Part shown: in pieces, positions 51,385 through 62,879 of the stretch | Layout: the number at the start of each line of letters is the position of its first letter | How positions within the stretch are numbered: the stretch's first letter is position 1 | Origin: Sinomonas cyclohexanicum | GTDB lineage: Bacteria; Actinomycetota; Actinomycetes; Actinomycetales; Micrococcaceae | Length of the DNA: 64,000 bases | Direction: 5' to 3' | Assembly (NCBI RefSeq): GCF_020886775.1 | Contig: NZ_AP024525.1 | Span: 2,232,001-2,296,000, forward strand | Program-made: the position numbers and the translations under genes | The notes under the pieces: generated by a model | Told to the model about the DNA's origin: nothing | What the model saw: only the letters and a program-made list of their open reading frames with translations | The model's database searches: none

Positions 51385-54048
51385 ATGTGCGGAATCGCCG
51401 GATACTTCGGCGCTGGGCTCGAGGAATCACTCCTGAAGGAGATGAACAGCTGCATCGTGCACCGCGGGCCCGACGGCGAGGGGTACTTCGCAGAGGGCAA
51501 CGTGGGCCTCGCCCACCGCCGGCTGGCGATCGTCGACGTCGCCCACGGCCAGGAGCCCATGGTGAGCGCCGACGGCGAGACCGTCCTCGTCTACAACGGC
51601 GAGGTCTACAACTACCGCGAGCTGCGCGCCGAGCTCGAGCAGCTCGGCCGCAGGTTCCGCACCGCCTCGGATACCGAGGTGGTCCTCCAGGCCTACGAGC
51701 AGTGGGGCACTGAGGCGTTCGACCGCTTCAACGGCATGTTCGGCCTCGCTCTCCTCGATCGGCGCCGCAACCAGCTGGTGCTCGTCCGCGACCACTTCGG
51801 CATCAAGCCGCTCTACTGGGCCAACGCGGGAACGGAGCACGAGCCGCAGCTGCTGTTCGCCTCCGAGATCAAGCCGATCCTCGCCACGGGCCTCGTCGAG
51901 GCCAAGCCCAACGAGCGGATCCTGTACCGCTACCTCCAGTACCGCATCCACGACGACACGGAGGAAACGTTCTTCGAGGGCGTGCGCAAGCTCCTCCCCG
52001 GCGAGATGATGACGGTCGAGCTGGATTCGGGCCGCTTCCGCATCTCCTCCTACACGCGCCTCCGCGAGGAGCTCGCCGAGCTTGCCAAGGTCAACACGCC
52101 GTACACGCCGGACGTCGTCGACGAGTACCGCAGGCGCTTCACCGAGGCCATCCGGATCCGCCTGAACTCCGAGGTCCCGGTGGGCAGCGCACTGTCCGGC
52201 GGCCTCGACTCCTCCGCCGTCGTCGTGACGATCAACCGGCTCATGCAGGAGAAGGCCGAGGGCCTCGAGGCCGTCGGCGCCAAGCAGAACACCTTCAGCG
52301 CGGTGTTCCCCAACGCGATCAACGACGAGGAGGCCTACGCCGACGCCGCGATCGCCGTGTGCAGCGGCAACGTCGAGGCCCACAAGATCAAGCCCACGCC
52401 GGAGGGCTTCGATGCCGACCTCGTCGACTTCGTGCGCACCATGGAGGAGCCGATCATCTCCTCGGGCCCGTACGCCCAGTACTGCGTCATGAAGGAGGCC
52501 TCCAAGCACGTGACCGTGCTCCTCGACGGCCAGGGCGCCGACGAGATGATGGCCGGCTACATCCCCTACTACTTCGCCTACCTGCGCCAGCTCAAGGCCT
52601 CCGGCGACTACGCGACGCTCGCCAAGGAGTCGTCGTCGAGCCTCGACATCTTCTACCGCCTCGGCCGGTTCCGCCTCGCGGGCATGGCCAGCGGCAAGAA
52701 GTCCGTCGCGATGGGCACGCTGCTGAAGAAGTCCTGGACGGAGAAGTTCTCCGGCGAGTCGTTCGGCAACATCCCGGCCAACCTCAAGGCCCGCCTCATC
52801 GACGACCTGTTCGCGAAGTCGCTCCCTTCGCTGCTGCGGTACGAGGACAAGAACACGATGCGCTTCTCGCTCGAGGGCCGCGTGCCATTCCTCGACAAGG
52901 AAGTGGTCAAGTACCTGTTCTCCCTCTCGGACGAGGCGATCATCAAGGAAGGCTGGAACAAGCGGGTGCTCCGCGACGCGACGCGCGGCCTCCTGCCCGA
53001 GATGATCAGCAACCGGCGCAACAAGATCGGCTTCACCACGCCCGAGGCGGAGTGGTTCAAGCTCATGAAGGAGCGCCTCTACAGGATCTTCATGTCCAAC
53101 TCGTTCTACTCGCGCCCGTACTGGGACCGCGAGCAGGTCCTCACGGCCTTCGAGGAGTACCTCAACGGCAAGAACGACGCCGACACGATGATCTTCTGGC
53201 GCCTCCTGAACGTCGAGCTCTGGCTGCGCGAGTTCATCGACAAGGACGAGGCCCCGGCGGACGTCACGGCGGACAAGAGCGACTACGAGGCGAACCCGGG
53301 CAAGGAACTCGACATCGCCTCGAACGGCTCGGTGTTCCGCAGGTATCCGCTCCAGACCGAGGTCTTCGCGAAGGACACCGACCTCGCCGCGGGCGTCACA
53401 TCGTACGTGAAGCGATTCTTCGAGGGGCTGCCGGACGCGCCCGCGGAGGCGCGTGCCGCCGTCGACGGCAAGAAGTGGTACCTGCTCGTGAGCGAGAAGA
53501 TCGTCGCGATCACCCAGGGGCGGTCGTTCCCCGTCTGGGAGATCAACGTGACCCCTGCGGCGCGCGTGCTCTCGAAGTTCGTGACGCGCACGCCGGCCGG
53601 GATCGGCCTCGGCAGCCCGTGGTCGATGCAGATCGCGATCAACGAGGTCGGCCTGCCGCTCATCGCGAAGGCCGCCGCCGCCTCGGTCGTCGGGAAGCTG
53701 CAGGGCAAGAGCGGCGTCTTCTACGACGTGGTGGGCCACAACATCAACGCAATCGACGGCGCGACCCCGTACAGCCTCGGCGCGGCCAGCAACTCGGTGA
53801 AGCTCGCGCCCAAGGATCCCGACGGCGTCGCACGTGCGCTCAGCGCCGCGGTGCGCGCCGCCCTCCCGGCCGAGGCCGTGGCGTCCTTCGGTGGCTCCGC
53901 CGTCATGGATGCGAACGACCTCGGCGTGGTCGTGATGGGCCACGACACGGATCTGCCCACGGAGACCATCGCGGGCATCTTCAAGGACAACCCGCAGGGC
54001 CAGGGCTCTCAGGCCACGCCGATGTCCCTCGTGTTCACGCAGGGCTGA
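51385..54048 (+). CDS. asnB: Glutamine-dependent asparagine synthetase fused to a CofE-like gamma-glutamyl ligase domain
   Basis: 887 residues, about 250 more than a usual AsnB. From ATG 51385 (MCGIAGYFG) Cys2 is the class II glutaminase nucleophile, followed by [10 protein letters not shown] and [11 protein letters not shown]. The synthetase domain has [11 protein letters not shown] near residue 270 and [16 protein letters not shown]. From about residue 650 a second domain begins: [76 protein letters not shown] and [11 protein letters not shown]. This is the F420-0:gamma-glutamyl ligase (CofE/FbiB-N) pattern, including the KDNPQGQG end. Both halves look complete. An ammonia-dependent amidation linked to a glutamyl ligation is conceivable; the substrate is unknown. 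Confidence 0.88.
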
Positions 54049-56206: not shown

Positions 56207-57535
56207 ATGCACGTCTTCAAGGACAGGACCGAAGCCGGGCGGGAACTGGCCCGCGTGCTCACCCGGTTCCGCGGGCCCGACACGGTCGTCCTCGGCCTTC
56301 CCCGCGGTGGCGTGCCTGTGGCGTTCGAGGTCGCGGTCAGCCTGGGCGCTCCGCTGGATGTCATCGTGGTGCGCAAGCTCGGCGTCCCGTTCCAGCAGGA
56401 ACTGGCCATGGGCGCGATCGGCGAGAACGGCGTGCGCGTGGTCGACGATCGGGTCAGGTCACTCTCGGGGGTGACCGAGCGCGAGTTCGGTCTCGTCGAA
56501 CACCGCGAGCGTGAGGTCCTCGAGGCCCGCGTTGCGCAGATCAGGGCCGTGCGGGCACCCGAGGACCTGAACGGCAAGACGGCCATCGTGGTGGACGACG
56601 GCATCGCGACGGGGTCCACGGCGAGGGTGGCGTGCACCATCGCACGCGCACTCGGGGCGGCACGGGTCATCCTCGCGGTCCCGGTCGGGCCGAAGGACGT
56701 GGTCGGGGACTTCGCCGAGGCCGACGAGGTCGTGTGCCTCTCGACGCCGTCGCCGTTCCGGGCGGTCGGCCGCTTCTACAACGATTTCTCCGCGACAAGC
56801 GACGAAGATGTCCTGCACCTCCTCGACGCCGCGGCGCGCCGCCCGGTGCCGGCGTCACGTTCAAAAGGTCCCGCCCCGAGGCACGAGGACGTGCTCATCC
56901 CGGTCGACGGCGTGACCATCCAGGGGAGCCTGCACCTGCCGGCGACCGCCGGCGTCGTGGTCTTCGCCCACGGCAGCGGCAGCAGCCGCCACAGCCCGCG
57001 CAATCGCGCCGTTGCCCGCGTCCTCCAGGACGCCGGACTCGGGACGCTCCTGCTGGACCTGCTCTCCCCCGACGAGGAGCTCGAGCGGCGTGCTGTGTTC
57101 GACATCGGCCTCCTCGCCTCCCGCCTCTCCGCGGCGACAGACTGGCTCCGAGCCGGGGCCGCTGGCGTCGAGAGGCCGATCGGCTACTTCGGGGCGAGCA
57201 CCGGGGCGGCCGCGGCGCTGTGGTCCGCGGCCGATCCGGATGCCCGCATCGACGCCGTGGTCTCACGGGGCGGGCGCCCCGACCTGGCCATCCAGCGGCT
57301 CGGAGCGGTGCGTGCGCCGACACTCCTGATCGTGGGCGGCGCGGACCGCCAGGTCCTCGAGCTCAACCGCGAAGCGGCACGGCACCTCACGTGCCCGAAC
57401 CGGCTCGAGATCGTTCCCGGCGCGACCCACCTCTTCGAGGAGCCCGGGGCGCTCGACGCCGTCGCCCGCCTAGCGCGCGACTGGTTCGTCGAACACCTCG
57501 GTGCGGCGGCCGTCGGCGGGGAGGGCCCGGCCTGA
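56207..57535 (+). CDS. Phosphoribosyltransferase - alpha/beta hydrolase fusion
   Basis: 442 residues in two domains. Residues 1-215 are a type I phosphoribosyltransferase: LGLPRGGVPVAFEVA, VVRKLGVPFQQELAMGAI and the PRPP loop TAIVVDDGIATGSTAR near 128. Residues 225-440 are a dienelactone-hydrolase-like domain: FAHGSGSSRHSPRNRAVA, nucleophile Ser in YFGASTGAAAAL near 330, and His in PGATHLFEEPG near 406. Fusions of this kind occur in actinobacteria; the substrate is unknown. A GAGGAGGAG SD fixes the start. Convergent with the acyl carrier protein gene. Confidence 0.88.
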   Translation: MHVFKDRTEAGRELARVLTRFRGPDTVVLGLPRGGVPVAFEVAVSLGAPLDVIVVRKLGVPFQQELAMGAIGENGVRVVDDRVRSLSGVTEREFGLVEHREREVLEARVAQIRAVRAPEDLNGKTAIVVDDGIATGSTARVACTIARALGAARVILAVPVGPKDVVGDFAEADEVVCLSTPSPFRAVGRFYNDFSATSDEDVLHLLDAAARRPVPASRSKGPAPRHEDVLIPVDGVTIQGSLHLPATAGVVVFAHGSGSSRHSPRNRAVARVLQDAGLGTLLLDLLSPDEELERRAVFDIGLLASRLSAATDWLRAGAAGVERPIGYFGASTGAAAALWSAADPDARIDAVVSRGGRPDLAIQRLGAVRAPTLLIVGGADRQVLELNREAARHLTCPNRLEIVPGATHLFEEPGALDAVARLARDWFVEHLGAAAVGGEGPA

Positions 57536-57544
57536 ACGGCACCG

Positions 57545-57790
57545 TCACGCGTGATGCGCGGCGACGTAGGCCACGAGCCCGCCGAAGGTTGCGACCAGTG
57601 GGTAGTCCCGCTCGGGGACGTCCACGCCGGTTGCCTTCGCGATCTGCTCGATGAGGCGCAGGAAGTCCAAGGAGTCGAGGTCGAGGTCCTGCCTGAGACG
57701 GTCCGAGTCGGCGATCTCGTCAGGCTCGAGCTCGGGTGCGATCTCGCGCAGCGCGGCGAGGGCCGCCGAGCGTGGGTCGAGGGTTGTCAT
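57545..57790 (-). CDS. Acyl carrier protein
   Basis: 81 residues with the phosphopantetheine site DLDLDSLDFLRL (Ser40) and an acidic helix II. Its ATG overlaps the E2 stop as ATGA, so it is the last gene of the dehydrogenase cluster. It is not the fatty-acid-cluster ACP. It might accept an acyl group from E2 or supply octanoyl for lipoylation; both are inference. Confidence 0.85.
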   Translation of the reverse strand: MTTLDPRSAALAALREIAPELEPDEIADSDRLRQDLDLDSLDFLRLIEQIAKATGVDVPERDYPLVATFGGLVAYVAAHHA

Positions 57791-59028
57791 AGCTCCTCCG
57801 GGGCGAGCAGGAGTTCGTGGACGCGGGCGAGGTAGCGGCCGCCGCCCAGGCCGTCGCTCACGCGGTGGTCGGCCGAGAGGGTCGCCGTGACGGTGGGCCG
57901 GACGCCGAGCATCCCGTTCTCGGCCCAGGGCCGCTCGACCACGCGCCCGAACCCGACCATCGCGACCTGCGGCGGGACGATGACCCCGAAGACGGACTCG
58001 ACGCCGAGGTCCCCGAGACTTGTGACCGTGATGGTCGCGTCCGCCATCTCGGCCCGCAGCAGCCGGCCCGCACGCGCACGCGCCGCGAGGTCGCGGAGCT
58101 TCGCCATCAGGTCGTCGACGGTGAGCGTGTCGGCGTCATGGAGTGCCGGGGCCACGAGGCCGCCGCCGCGCAGGGCAAGCGCGACGCCGAGGTGCACGTG
58201 CTCGCTCGGGGCGAAGCCGCTCTCCGTGAAGAATCCGTTCATGCCGGGCACCTCGCGGGCCGCGACTGCCGCGGCCTTGAGCAGGAAGGCCGCGGGGACG
58301 AGGCGCTCGGAGACGGGCCGCGCGAGGTTGCGGTCCTGCATGAGCGCGACGGTCCTGCCCAGATCGATCGTGGTGCTGAGGTAGTAGTGCGGGATGGTCG
58401 CCTTGGACCTGGCCATGAGGCTGCCGAGGGCCGCCCGGAGCGTCGCGGCCTTGCCCTGCGGCTGGTCCGCGCCCGACGGCGATGCCTCCTCGGGCGCGGG
58501 CTGTGGGCTCGGCCGGGTGGTCGCCGGCCCGTCCGCCTGTTCCGGCCCGGCTCCCTGCACGGCGGCCCGGCGGACATCTGCCTCGGACACACTCCCCTGG
58601 GGACCGGTTCCCTCGACGGTCCCCAGGTCGATCCCCAGTCGGGCCGCGAGGCGCCTGGCGAGCGGCGACGACCGCACGTGGTGGCTGGCGGCATGCGCCG
58701 CGGGGGCGGCATGCGCCGCAGGGGCGGCCTGTGCGGCCCCAACGTGCTCTGCCGCCGGGCGTGGGGGCTCGGGCGGAGCCTCCGGGCGCGCTGTGCGCTC
58801 GTCGAGTCTCACGATGGGCGTGCCAACGGAGACCGTTTCCCCGAGGGGCACGAGGTACTCGCCAATCACGCCGTCCTCGAAGGACTCGACGTCCATGATC
58901 GTCTTGTCCGTGTCGACAACCGCGATGAGGTCGCCGCGGTGCACAGTGTCGCCGGGCTTGACGAGCCATTCGACGATCTTCCCGTGCTCCATGTCCGCCC
59001 CGAGCGAGGGCATCGTCAGCTCACGCAT
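57787..59028 (-). CDS. 2-oxo-acid dehydrogenase E2 (dihydrolipoyl acyltransferase)
   Basis: 413 residues. Single lipoyl domain with the modified Lys42 in [16 protein letters not shown], an Ala/Pro/His linker, the E1/E3-binding domain ([17 protein letters not shown]), and a catalytic domain with [15 protein letters not shown] (HxxxDG). Length fits acetoin- or pyruvate-type E2. ATG 59028 overlaps the E1 beta stop by 8 bases; the long upstream open frame is a shadow. Confidence 0.9.
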
Positions 59029-60001
59029 GGGTGGACACCGTTTCGAGTGCGGCCGCGACCACACGTTCGGCGGAGGGCAGGGCGGCCTGTTCGAGGTGCT
59101 TGGCGTAGGGCATCGGGACCTCTGCCCCGCAGACCCTGACGACCGGCGCGTCGAGCTCGTAGAAGGCCCTTTCGGTGATGCGCGCACTGACTTCGGCCGA
59201 GAGGCTCCCGCTGCGCCATGCCTCGTCGACGACGACGGCGCGGTGGGTCCGTGCGACGCTCGCCAGGATCGTCGCGTCGTCGAGGGGGCGCAGGGTGCGC
59301 AGGTCAACCACCTCAGCGCTGATCCCCTGCGCCGCGAGCTGCTCGGCGGCGTCGAGCGTGAGCGGAAGGGTCCCGCCGTAGGTGATGAGGCTGACGTCGG
59401 TGCCTTCCCGACGCACGGCCGCGCTGTCGATCCCGACCGGGCCGGCGCTGTCGTCGAGCTCGCCCTCGGCTCCGTAGAGCGAACCATGTTCGAAGATGAG
59501 CACCGGATCGGGGTCCTCGAGGGCTGTCCACAGCATGCCGCGTGCGTCCTCGAGCGTAGCGGGGGCCAGGATCTTCAGGCCGGGGATGTGGGCGTACCAG
59601 CCCTCGAGGCTGTGCGAATGCTGGGCGCCGAGCTGCCGCCCCGCACCCGTCGTCATGCGGATGACGATCGGGACATTGAACTGGCCGCCGGACATGTGCA
59701 GGAGGGACGCGGCGCTGTTGACGATCTGGTCGAGGGCCAGGAGGCTGAAGTTCACGGTCATGATCTCGACGATGGGCCGCATCCCGCCCAAGGCGGCCCC
59801 GATGCCCGCGCCCACGAATCCGGACTCCGAGAGCGGTGTGTCGCGGACCCGTTCCGGGCCGAACTCCTCGAGGAGGCCGAGGCTCACGGCGTAGCAGCCG
59901 CCGTAGGCGCCCACGTCCTCGCCCATGAGGAACACGCGCTCATCCCTCCGGAGCGCGTCCCGCAGCGCGGCGCGCATGGCCTCGCGATACGTCGTCGTCA
60001 T
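59021..60001 (-). CDS. 2-oxo-acid dehydrogenase E1 beta subunit
   Basis: 326 residues: [60 protein letters not shown] and [20 protein letters not shown]. It forms the TPP-dependent E1 heterotetramer with the alpha subunit. Overlaps E1 alpha by 4 bases. Confidence 0.92.
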
Positions 60002-60999
60002 GGCGCGCTCCGCTCGCTGTAGACGAACCGTGTCAGCTCGTCGACCGGCTCGAGGGTGCCCGCCTCCGCGAAGGCGACGGCGTCCGCGATCTCCTCATCC
60101 GCTTCGCGCCCGAGCTGCGTCCACGCGCCGTCGTCGAGGAGTTCGGCAGCTCCGAGGGCCCCGCGGAGGGCGGGAATGGGGTCGCGCTGCATCCATGCGG
60201 TGACCTCGGCCTTGTCCCGGTAGCGCTCCGGATCGAACATCGAGTGCGCGCGGAATCGATAGGTCCTCAGCTCGAGGAAGTATGGACCGCCGCCGCCCCG
60301 CACCGCATCGACCGCCCGGCGCGCTGCGCCCGCAACTGCGAGGGAATCCATGCCGTCGACCTCCCAGGCGGGAACGCCATAGGCGGCGGCCTTGAGCGCG
60401 AGGTCGGTCTGCGACTCCGACCGGGTCAGTGCCGTCCCCATCGCGTAGAGGTTGTTCTCGCAGCAGAACAGCACGGGCAGGCGCCACAGCGCTGCGAGGT
60501 TCATGCTCTCGTGGAACTCGCCCTCGGCCATGGCACCCTCGCCGAAGAAGCATGCGGTCACCCGGTCGCGGCCCTGCATGGCGTCCGCGAGTGCGAGCCC
60601 GACGGCAAGTGGAAGTCCGCCGGCCACGATCGCGTTGCCGCCGTAGAACCTCGTGCCGGCGTCGAAGAGGTGCATCGACCCACCGCGGCCACGGCTGCAG
60701 CCCTCGGCCTTGCCGTACATCTCGGCCATGAGCCGCCGCGCCGGCACGCCCCTCAGGAGCGCGTGGCCGTGCTCGCGGTACGTCGCGACGACCGCATCGT
60801 CGGGCCCCAGAGCGCTCATGACGCCGGCAACGACCGCCTCCTCGCCGATGGACACATGCAGGAAGCCGCGGATCTTCTGTTCGGTGTAGAGCCGCACGCA
60901 CGCCTCCTCGAGACGCCGGACCCGCAGCATGGACCTCAGGAGTCCGACTGCCGCCTCGGGGTCAGTGTCGAGGACGCCGGTCGCTGGAGCGCTGCTCAT
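59998..60999 (-). CDS. 2-oxo-acid dehydrogenase E1 alpha subunit
   Basis: 333 residues from ATG 60999. [34 protein letters not shown] and the TPP motif [19 protein letters not shown] near residue 150 match acetoin/pyruvate E1 alpha (AcoA/PdhA) more than branched-chain BkdA. It overlaps the ligase stop as ATGA. Substrate uncertain. Confidence 0.9.
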
Positions 61000-62798
61000 G
61001 GCCTGGCCTCGAGCGTGGAGGTGTCGCCCTCGGGGAGGCCGAGCTCGCGGGCCTTGAGGAGGCGGCGCAGCACCTTGCCGCTGCGCGTGTGCGGGAGCGC
61101 CGCCACGAACTCCACCGAACGAGGCGCGACGGCGGCGCCCAGCCGGCGTCGTGCGAAGCCGATGATGTCGAGGCGCAGCTCGTCGGTGGCCTCGTGCCCG
61201 GCACGCAGCTCGACGAACGCCTTGACCACCTCCCCGGCCACCGGGTCCGGCACGCCGATGACGCCTGCCTCGGCTACCGCGGCGTGTTCCATGAGCGCGC
61301 TCTCCACCTCGAAGGGCCCGATGAGGTGGCCAGAGGACTTGATCACATCGTCGCCGCGGCCCACGAACCAGTAGTACCCGTCGGCGTCGCGCGTCGCGAG
61401 GTCGCCGGTGAGGTACCAGCCTCCGGCGAAGCACTTCTGGTAGCGCTCGTCCTCGTTGAGGTACCCACGGAACATCGAGGGCCAGCCGGGCCGCAGAGCG
61501 AGCTCGCCGACGGCGCCGGGCTCGGCGACCGGCACGGCCTCGCCGTCCCGCAGCACGGGCCGGTCGTCGGGCCCGCGCGTCAGGACGGTCGCCTCCACAC
61601 CGGGCAGCGGCTTCCCCATGGATCCCGGGCGGATGTCCATGGCGGCGTAGTTGGAGATCATGATGCCTCCGGTCTCGGTCTGCCACCAGTTGTCATGCAC
61701 CGGCAGGCCCAGGGCTTCCTGCCCCCAGAGGACCACCTCGGGGTTGAGGGGCTCACCGACGCTGGCCACGAATCGCAGCGCGCTCAGATCGTGCTCGCGG
61801 GCGCGCTCGGCGCCTGCTTTCATGAGCATTCGCAGCGCGGTCGGCGCCGTGTACCAGACAGTGACGCGCTCCTCGGCCAGGATCCGGTACCAGCGGTCGA
61901 CGTCGAGCTCCTCCTCGTCGACGACCGCGGTGACCCCATGGACGAGGGGAGCGATGATCCCGTACGACGTCCCGGTGACCCACCCCGGGTCCGCCGTGCA
62001 CCAGTAGACATCATCCGGGTGGAGGTCGAGGGCGTATCGTCCCGTGGCCCAGTGGGCCACGACGGCCTCGTGCACGTGGAGCGCACCCTTGGGCGTCCCG
62101 GTCGTGCCGCTCGTGAAGTGCAGGAGCGCGTAGTCGTCAGGGAGCGTCCGCGCCACCTCCGCGAGGGGCTCGGCCTTGAGCATGAGCGCCGCCAGGTCGA
62201 GCGTTCCCGGCTCGGGCGAGTCTCCGGCGTCAACCAGGAGGACGTGCCGGAGATCGGGCAGGTCGGAGCGGATGGCCGCGACCTTCTTGCGGTACAGGGA
62301 CCGCGTTGTCACGAGCACCCGGCCGCCGCCCAGCCCGAGGCGCTGGCGCACGGGGTCCGGGCCGAATGCCGAGAACAGTGGACAGAACACGCTTCCTGCC
62401 TTGAGCGTGCCAAGGACGGCGGCGTAGAGTTCGGGCCTCCGGCCGAGGAGTGAGAAGACCCGCTCCCCCGGGCCCACACCGAGACCGCGCAGGACGCCGG
62501 CGAAGCGGCTAGCCCGCTCGGCCAGATCCGAGTACGTGAGGGACTCGACGCCACCGTCGGCGTGCACGAAGCGCAGGGCCTCGTGGCCGCCCAAAGGACC
62601 TGCAGCGTGCCGATCGACCGCCTCGTGGGCAATGTTGAGCCCGCCGCCCGGCAGGCCCGTGAGGGCACGGCGCGCGTCCTCCCAGCGGAACACGGCGCAC
62701 TCCCCGTCATAGTCCGCGAGATGGGGCGCGACGGTCAGGGCCCGGGGGTCCTTGTGGATCACCGGCCACGTTGTAGCCGCGTGGGTTTCTGCGCTCAC
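60996..62798 (-). CDS. Acetyl-CoA synthetase-like acyl-CoA ligase
   Basis: 600 residues from GTG 62798 (a longer frame to 62825 is poorly supported). AMP-binding P-loop [18 protein letters not shown] near residue 228, [35 protein letters not shown] and the catalytic Lys in [16 protein letters not shown]. It activates acetate or another short acid to CoA via acyl-AMP. First gene of the cluster, so it probably recycles or feeds the acid linked to the E1-E2 reaction. Confidence 0.88.
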
Positions 62799-62879
62799 GA
62801 CTCCATGACACGCCGCCCGCCGCATGCGGCCAAGTGCCTAAAGTCCCCGGGTGCTTCCGCAGCCCCCGGCGCCCTTCTC

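Follow-up and report, generated by a model that had tools for sequence, protein, structure and literature searches.

A conserved fusion of an AsnB-type amidotransferase with a divergent CofE-fold domain in Sinomonas cyclohexanicum and its relatives

In asparagine synthetases of the AsnB type, ammonia is released from glutamine and an adenylated carboxylate is amidated. Enzymes of this type are also described, in the available portions of two reports, as amidating the mDAP of peptidoglycan in several Gram-positive bacteria, and the corresponding clade of mDAP amidotransferases, LtsA and AsnB1, is distinguished by an extra loop and a conserved proline (PMC8554201; PMC7920481). CofE, the F420-0:gamma-glutamyl ligase, is likewise known in more than one setting. 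In mycobacterial FbiB it is fused to a nitroreductase domain (PMC8498797, in excerpt), and the Chlamydia protein CT611 (FolC2) is, according to the accessible part of its description, a CofE homologue able to replace FolC (PMC1971073).

Both enzyme types meet on one chain in a protein encoded in a window of 64,000 nucleotides from Sinomonas cyclohexanicum, the whole stretch of DNA that was analysed (Table 1). The initial annotation had reported a single uninterrupted frame of 887 codons joining an AsnB to a CofE-like domain, and this was borne out: the same fused frame recurs in 50 of 80 relatives, which rules out a sequencing artefact or a chance frame, and the gene is confirmed as a real fusion of an AsnB-type amidotransferase with a relative of CofE. 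Its N-half has the Cys2 glutaminase and the SGGLDSS loop, as had been described; furthermore, its Asn_synthase domain scores above the cut-off, it passes TIGR01536, and it is the sole full Asn_synthase of the Sinomonas genome. We take Cys2 to be the glutaminase nucleophile. Judged by its fold and motifs, this half can apparently still hydrolyse glutamine and activate a carboxylate. With AsnB (TIGR01536; PDB: 1CT9) and the mDAP amidotransferases LtsA and AsnB1 it has in common the Cys2 glutaminase, the pyrophosphate loop and the whole fold, but it differs from them in carrying a C-terminal ligase, in occurring in genomes without an asparaginyl-tRNA synthetase (AsnRS) above the cut-off, and in having lost its motifs in several lineages. 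FbiB is similarly a two-domain protein with a CofE-type domain (PMC8498797, in excerpt); however, its layout, with CofE followed by the nitroreductase, is not that of the Sinomonas fusion, where the partner is AsnB-type and N-terminal, the CofE-like domain is C-terminal, and no F420 pathway was found. A literature search of open-access papers returned no title on an AsnB/CofE-like fusion, and none of 342 matching plasmid records covers 80% of the fused protein.

Table 1. Features of the fused gene, in positions of the window
Feature	Position	Strand	Remark
Whole fused gene	51385..54048	+	887 codons + stop; fused frame in 50/80 relatives
AsnB-type half, residues 2-617 (Ntn glutaminase + Asn_synthase domain)	51388..53235	+	
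Cys2	51388..51390	+	
SGGLDSS pyrophosphate loop, residues 271-277	52195..52215	+	
Linker, residues 618-642	53236..53310	+	coil in full-length model; pLDDT lowest at 621-630
CofE-like domain, residues 643-887	53311..54045	+	
11-residue motif of CofE-like domain, residues 703-713	53491..53523	+	
AIDG motif, residues 789-792	53749..53760	+	
KLAPKDPD motif, residues 806-813	53800..53823	+	
DANDLG motif, residues 842-847	53908..53925	+	
DNPQGQ motif, residues 868-873	53986..54003	+	absent from 8 aligned canonical CofE sequences

The folds of both halves, AsnB-type and CofE, are supported by structure prediction, and when the predicted structure of the C-terminal domain was compared with known structures it had the CofE fold, with no unrelated fold near. 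Profile searches with this domain gave a divided answer: it scores 19.2 bits against PF01996, below the cut-off of 25 bits, and has no match to TIGR01916, whereas a PDB search with a profile of the family alignment reached an E-value of 0.0014. A PDB search with the single domain sequence returned nothing useful, and the Sinomonas genome as a whole has no PF01996 match at E 1e-3. Among 43 family sequences, all match PF01996 and 27 match TIGR01916 (E up to 1 in both cases). A direct hhalign comparison of the family with canonical CofE gave an E-value of 0.00099 with a probability of only 21.7%, and aligned the SxK..GR and DPD parts without firmly placing the AIDG motif. Because the latter is so loosely placed, we make no assignment of metal ligands in the CofE-like domain; in CofE itself we presume these to be Asp109 and Asp150.

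The alignment of the 43 sequences, which range from Actinomycetota to Clostridia, has 45 invariant columns, some of which become variable once more distant rows join it. The fold and the SxK..GR, DPD and D-x-N/T elements are common to the family and to CofE and the FbiB N-domain (PF01996, TIGR01916; PDB: 2PHN, 7ULD). In contrast, 37 residues separate the D-T/D-A-N element from the last conserved proline, about 26 fewer than the 63 in CofE, and the motif differs; the stretch between GR and the conserved Asp that follows exceeds that of CofE by about 37 residues (78 versus 41), if D153 is the counterpart. A D..G..T..ADE..GK segment after D-T-x-G-R, invariant in 8 canonical CofE sequences, was not found as such in the 43-sequence family, where the region is also shorter. 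Hence the claim that the domain has conserved F420-0:gamma-glutamyl ligase motifs holds for the core elements, but not for the acceptor region, which differs, nor for the curated models, which miss the domain, and no F420 pathway was found in the Sinomonas genome. Three clostridial sequences (L121-L123, from G356, G354 and G414) have changes in many of the otherwise invariant columns and sit on a long branch (1.67); they form a second, more distant CofE-like subfamily, probably another ligase.

The C-domain was found at 80 loci, comprising 50 long fused frames, 27 short frames and 3 fragments cut by contig ends (L044, L074 and L080; L061 is also cut, yet counted as a short frame). The fused loci come mainly from Micrococcaceae, Intrasporangiaceae and Dermacoccaceae, with others in two further actinobacterial MAGs, one of them from Coriobacteriia, and in one Firmicutes MAG. 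The main home of the short-frame loci is Clostridia, and the standalone frames measure about 230-330 codons. In an order-level sample of 297 genomes the domain is present in 37, as a long frame in 28 and as a short frame in 9, all nine belonging to one family (f19); one of the 28, L095 (G294), is an interrupted fused gene with a 496-codon frame across the C-half. In a class-level sample of 148 clostridial genomes 11 match, 9 of them clearly, and 3 of these 9 are the distant subfamily. On a tree that leaves out the fragments and 17 close relatives (L002-L011, L015-L017, L037, L039, L045 and L048) and retains three duplicate pairs, the fused rows, including those with eroded AsnB motifs, form a single clade (97/82), sister to the standalone row L067 (96/88). 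The AsnB half was therefore probably joined to the ligase once. In the clostridial clade L071 branches first, with L053 among the next; the placement of L064 is unsure because of its long branch.

The two halves of the fusion have evolved under different regimes: the AsnB half is under relaxed, sometimes near-neutral constraint, whereas the CofE-like half is conserved and the frame stays open. The motif check covered 72 rows, or 69 distinct frames once the duplicates L169, L170 and L171 are discounted (further duplicates, L081, L082, L083, L168 and L172, and the row L095 were left out). By the script's rule 59 of the 69 keep the AsnB catalytic motifs, with L035 passing weakly. Ten are changed, of which one, L040, only has its N-terminus unaligned, and the remaining nine (L042, L043, L091, L092, L093, L158, L159, L160 and L164) have neither Cys2 nor an intact SGGLDSS loop. 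Asn_synthase scores within this group grade down from 139 bits in L164 through 50 in L091 to no match at E 0.001 in L159. In the CofE-like halves of the same nine proteins only 0-3 of the 45 invariant columns are changed, and all changes at these columns also occur in intact relatives. The eroded state takes five changes on the tree, at least three of which are imposed by well-supported branches. Across the 11 pairs that include an eroded protein, pN/pS runs from 0.51 to 1.06 for the N-half and from 0.16 to 0.42 for the C-half, as against 0.10-0.48 and 0.12-0.40 in nine intact pairs, and for L035-L030, a borderline pair, the values are 0.66 and 0.29; some of these pairs are close to saturation at synonymous sites. 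Not one stop codon is present in the nine eroded N-halves, whereas a simple neutral simulation, started from a relative with intact motifs, produced 4.1-8.4 stops on average and a stop-free outcome in at most 27 of 2000 runs; the eroded N-half is thus probably still translated. Another full-length Asn_synthase was absent from seven of eight eroded genomes searched and present in two copies in the eighth, G062 (G090, which carries L164, lies outside this count). The repeated loss of AsnB motifs with the CofE-like half retained means that the ligase can be uncoupled from AsnB catalysis: on this evolutionary evidence, ligation by the C-half does not need amidation by the N-half. The family thus offers a clean natural example of fusion evolution, in which one half repeatedly decays while the other stays conserved and the frame open. 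What is new here is that the CofE-like domain, standing alone in Clostridia and in one family of Micrococcales, is the protected part; the fusion is old and conserved, and this part of it is a divergent CofE-fold ligase.

The neighbours of the standalone genes point to an acceptor among cell-envelope precursors, though they are suggestive only. Across 40 distinct short-frame loci the direct neighbours include, as raw counts, glmS at 5, murB at 3, mraZ at 1 and an ATP-grasp gene of PF14397 (ATPgrasp_ST, 'sugar-transfer associated') at 8; cell-wall genes thus directly adjoin the standalone gene at 9 of the 40 loci (raw count), and Pfam confirms them at 3 glmS, 2 murB and 1 mraZ loci. ATPgrasp_ST adjoins standalone CofE-like genes in two phyla. 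In each of the nine f19 genomes its coordinates place it next to the standalone gene and convergent with it, and it also adjoins the clostridial L053 and L071; past the ATP-grasp gene lies an alanine racemase in L086 and L088, and by clustering also in L087. In the order-level sample PF14397 is above the cut-off in 9/9 short-frame carriers, 0/28 fused genomes and 9/260 genomes without the domain (Fisher p 1e-12 for short-frame carriers versus the rest, the nine being one family and not independent). It is likewise above the cut-off in 17 of 20 clostridial or uncultured genomes with short-frame loci (these cover 20 of the 27 loci), but in the wider clostridial sample it is not enriched in carriers (3/9 versus 30/139, p 0.42). 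The neighbours of the fused gene in Micrococcaceae, namely ruvABC-, yebC- and pdxT-like genes and an M3 peptidase, give no hint of an envelope role, and one kind of neighbour of the standalone genes, the formate-tetrahydrofolate ligase of L070 and, by sequence similarity, L078, speaks for another direction.

Several functions might be proposed for the CofE-like domain, and that of an F420 ligase acting on F420-0, whether self-made or imported, would accord with its predicted CofE fold. FO synthase (CofH), however, is above the cut-off in 0/50 carriers, with no match at all in the Sinomonas genome, and in one of four non-carrier controls; together with an acceptor region unlike that of CofE, this makes an F420 enzyme extremely improbable, even though FbiC-like matches below the threshold, at 194-255 bits and within frames of 839-901 codons, occur in three standalone f19 carriers (G069, G083 and G205). 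The survey of the fusion and of F420 genes that had been proposed at the outset found the fusion at the 50 loci given above, and the domain is probably not an F420 enzyme. Since the family matches CofE models, its members risk being misread as F420 genes where no F420 pathway is found. As a separate observation, G001, G017 and G021 have a canonical CofE above the cut-off (143-176 bits) and no CofH match. The addition of gamma-glutamyl tails to folate has its precedent in CT611, likewise a CofE relative without F420 in the part of its description that is available (PMC1971073). TIGR04132, a putative folate ligase model, is matched by 23 of the 43 relatives (E up to 1, best 6.3e-5), and a formate-tetrahydrofolate ligase directly adjoins the standalone gene on its upstream side at L070 5965-6672 (recognised by Pfam) and, by sequence similarity, at L078 5947-6672. 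Yet the window domain itself has no match to TIGR04132, and FolC is above the cut-off in 46 of 48 carriers, Sinomonas included. Unlike FolC2, then, the family does not stand in for a missing FolC, and in actinobacteria it is mostly fused to AsnB. The domain is probably not a folate enzyme, and folate tailing in particular seems very unlikely.

Two other readings concern how the halves relate. Were they unrelated enzymes that share only their expression, the N-half would make free asparagine and the C-half would be a separate ligase; that the N-half passes TIGR01536 as the only full Asn_synthase of its genome, and that the halves come apart in evolution, would agree with this. AsnRS, however, is above the cut-off in none of 48 carrier handles (at most 46 distinct, since by identical coordinates G150 is G468 and G277 is G469); seven f19 genomes and two others match the model at 143-239 bits, and these may be other class II enzymes. 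With no AsnRS above the cut-off, we infer that carriers probably make the asparagine of proteins on tRNA and that AsnB is probably not needed for it; a role of the fused AsnB in translation was judged against on the same ground. As the fusion is moreover retained across families though its parts decay independently, we consider two unrelated enzymes a rather unlikely arrangement. It had also been suggested that the halves act on one molecule, amidation and ligation following in sequence where both are intact. The many fused frames with intact AsnB motifs, the similar constraint on both halves of intact pairs, and the ATP-grasp gene, found in every standalone and no fused genome of the order-level sample as if AsnB had replaced it, speak for such a sequence. 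But the CofE-like domain is conserved both where it stands alone and where the AsnB motifs have gone, so that joint action, possible where AsnB is intact, as in this Sinomonas, is not required; we regard it as unlikely. The alternative suggestion, that the second domain was recruited for another amide ligation, is probably correct.

The reading we favour, tentatively and at a little under an even chance, is of a bifunctional fusion with a conserved CofE-fold core, a carboxylate-amine ligase not acting in F420 synthesis, and a separable AsnB half, the acceptor possibly being an envelope precursor. The catalytic activity, nucleotide, substrate and envelope role of the C-half we infer from fold, motifs and neighbours. 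By analogy with CofE (the mechanism as given in the available part of PMC8498797), the C-half would probably phosphorylate a carboxylate on its acceptor with GTP or ATP, and an amine, perhaps glutamate, would then be joined to it; the acceptor would not be F420-0 and probably not folate, and the recurrent neighbours of the standalone genes hint that it may belong to cell-envelope precursor metabolism. The N-half, by analogy with AsnB, would take ammonia from glutamine and amidate a carboxylate activated by adenylation, an activity presumably useful but separable from the ligase. A wider version of this favoured reading, possible but doubtful, would place an F420-independent family of CofE-type ligases at the core of an amide-building module acting on an envelope precursor in Clostridia and Micrococcales, with the neighbouring ATP-grasp protein and the fused AsnB as alternative partners, the AsnB half being in some lineages a catalytically dead but translated leader. 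Since the two activities have already come apart in evolution, a small standalone clostridial protein or an eroded fusion offers a route to the ligase substrate that can be tested without AsnB activity.

Downstream in the window, a 442-residue protein (56207-57535, plus strand) has an N-terminal phosphoribosyltransferase domain and a long C-terminal part with no Pfam match at E 1e-5 that looks, by eye, like an alpha/beta hydrolase. On the minus strand, 57787-62825 holds what appear by eye to be the E2, E1-beta and E1-alpha components of a TPP-dependent dehydrogenase and, beyond these frames, an AMP-binding acyl-CoA synthetase recognised by Pfam.
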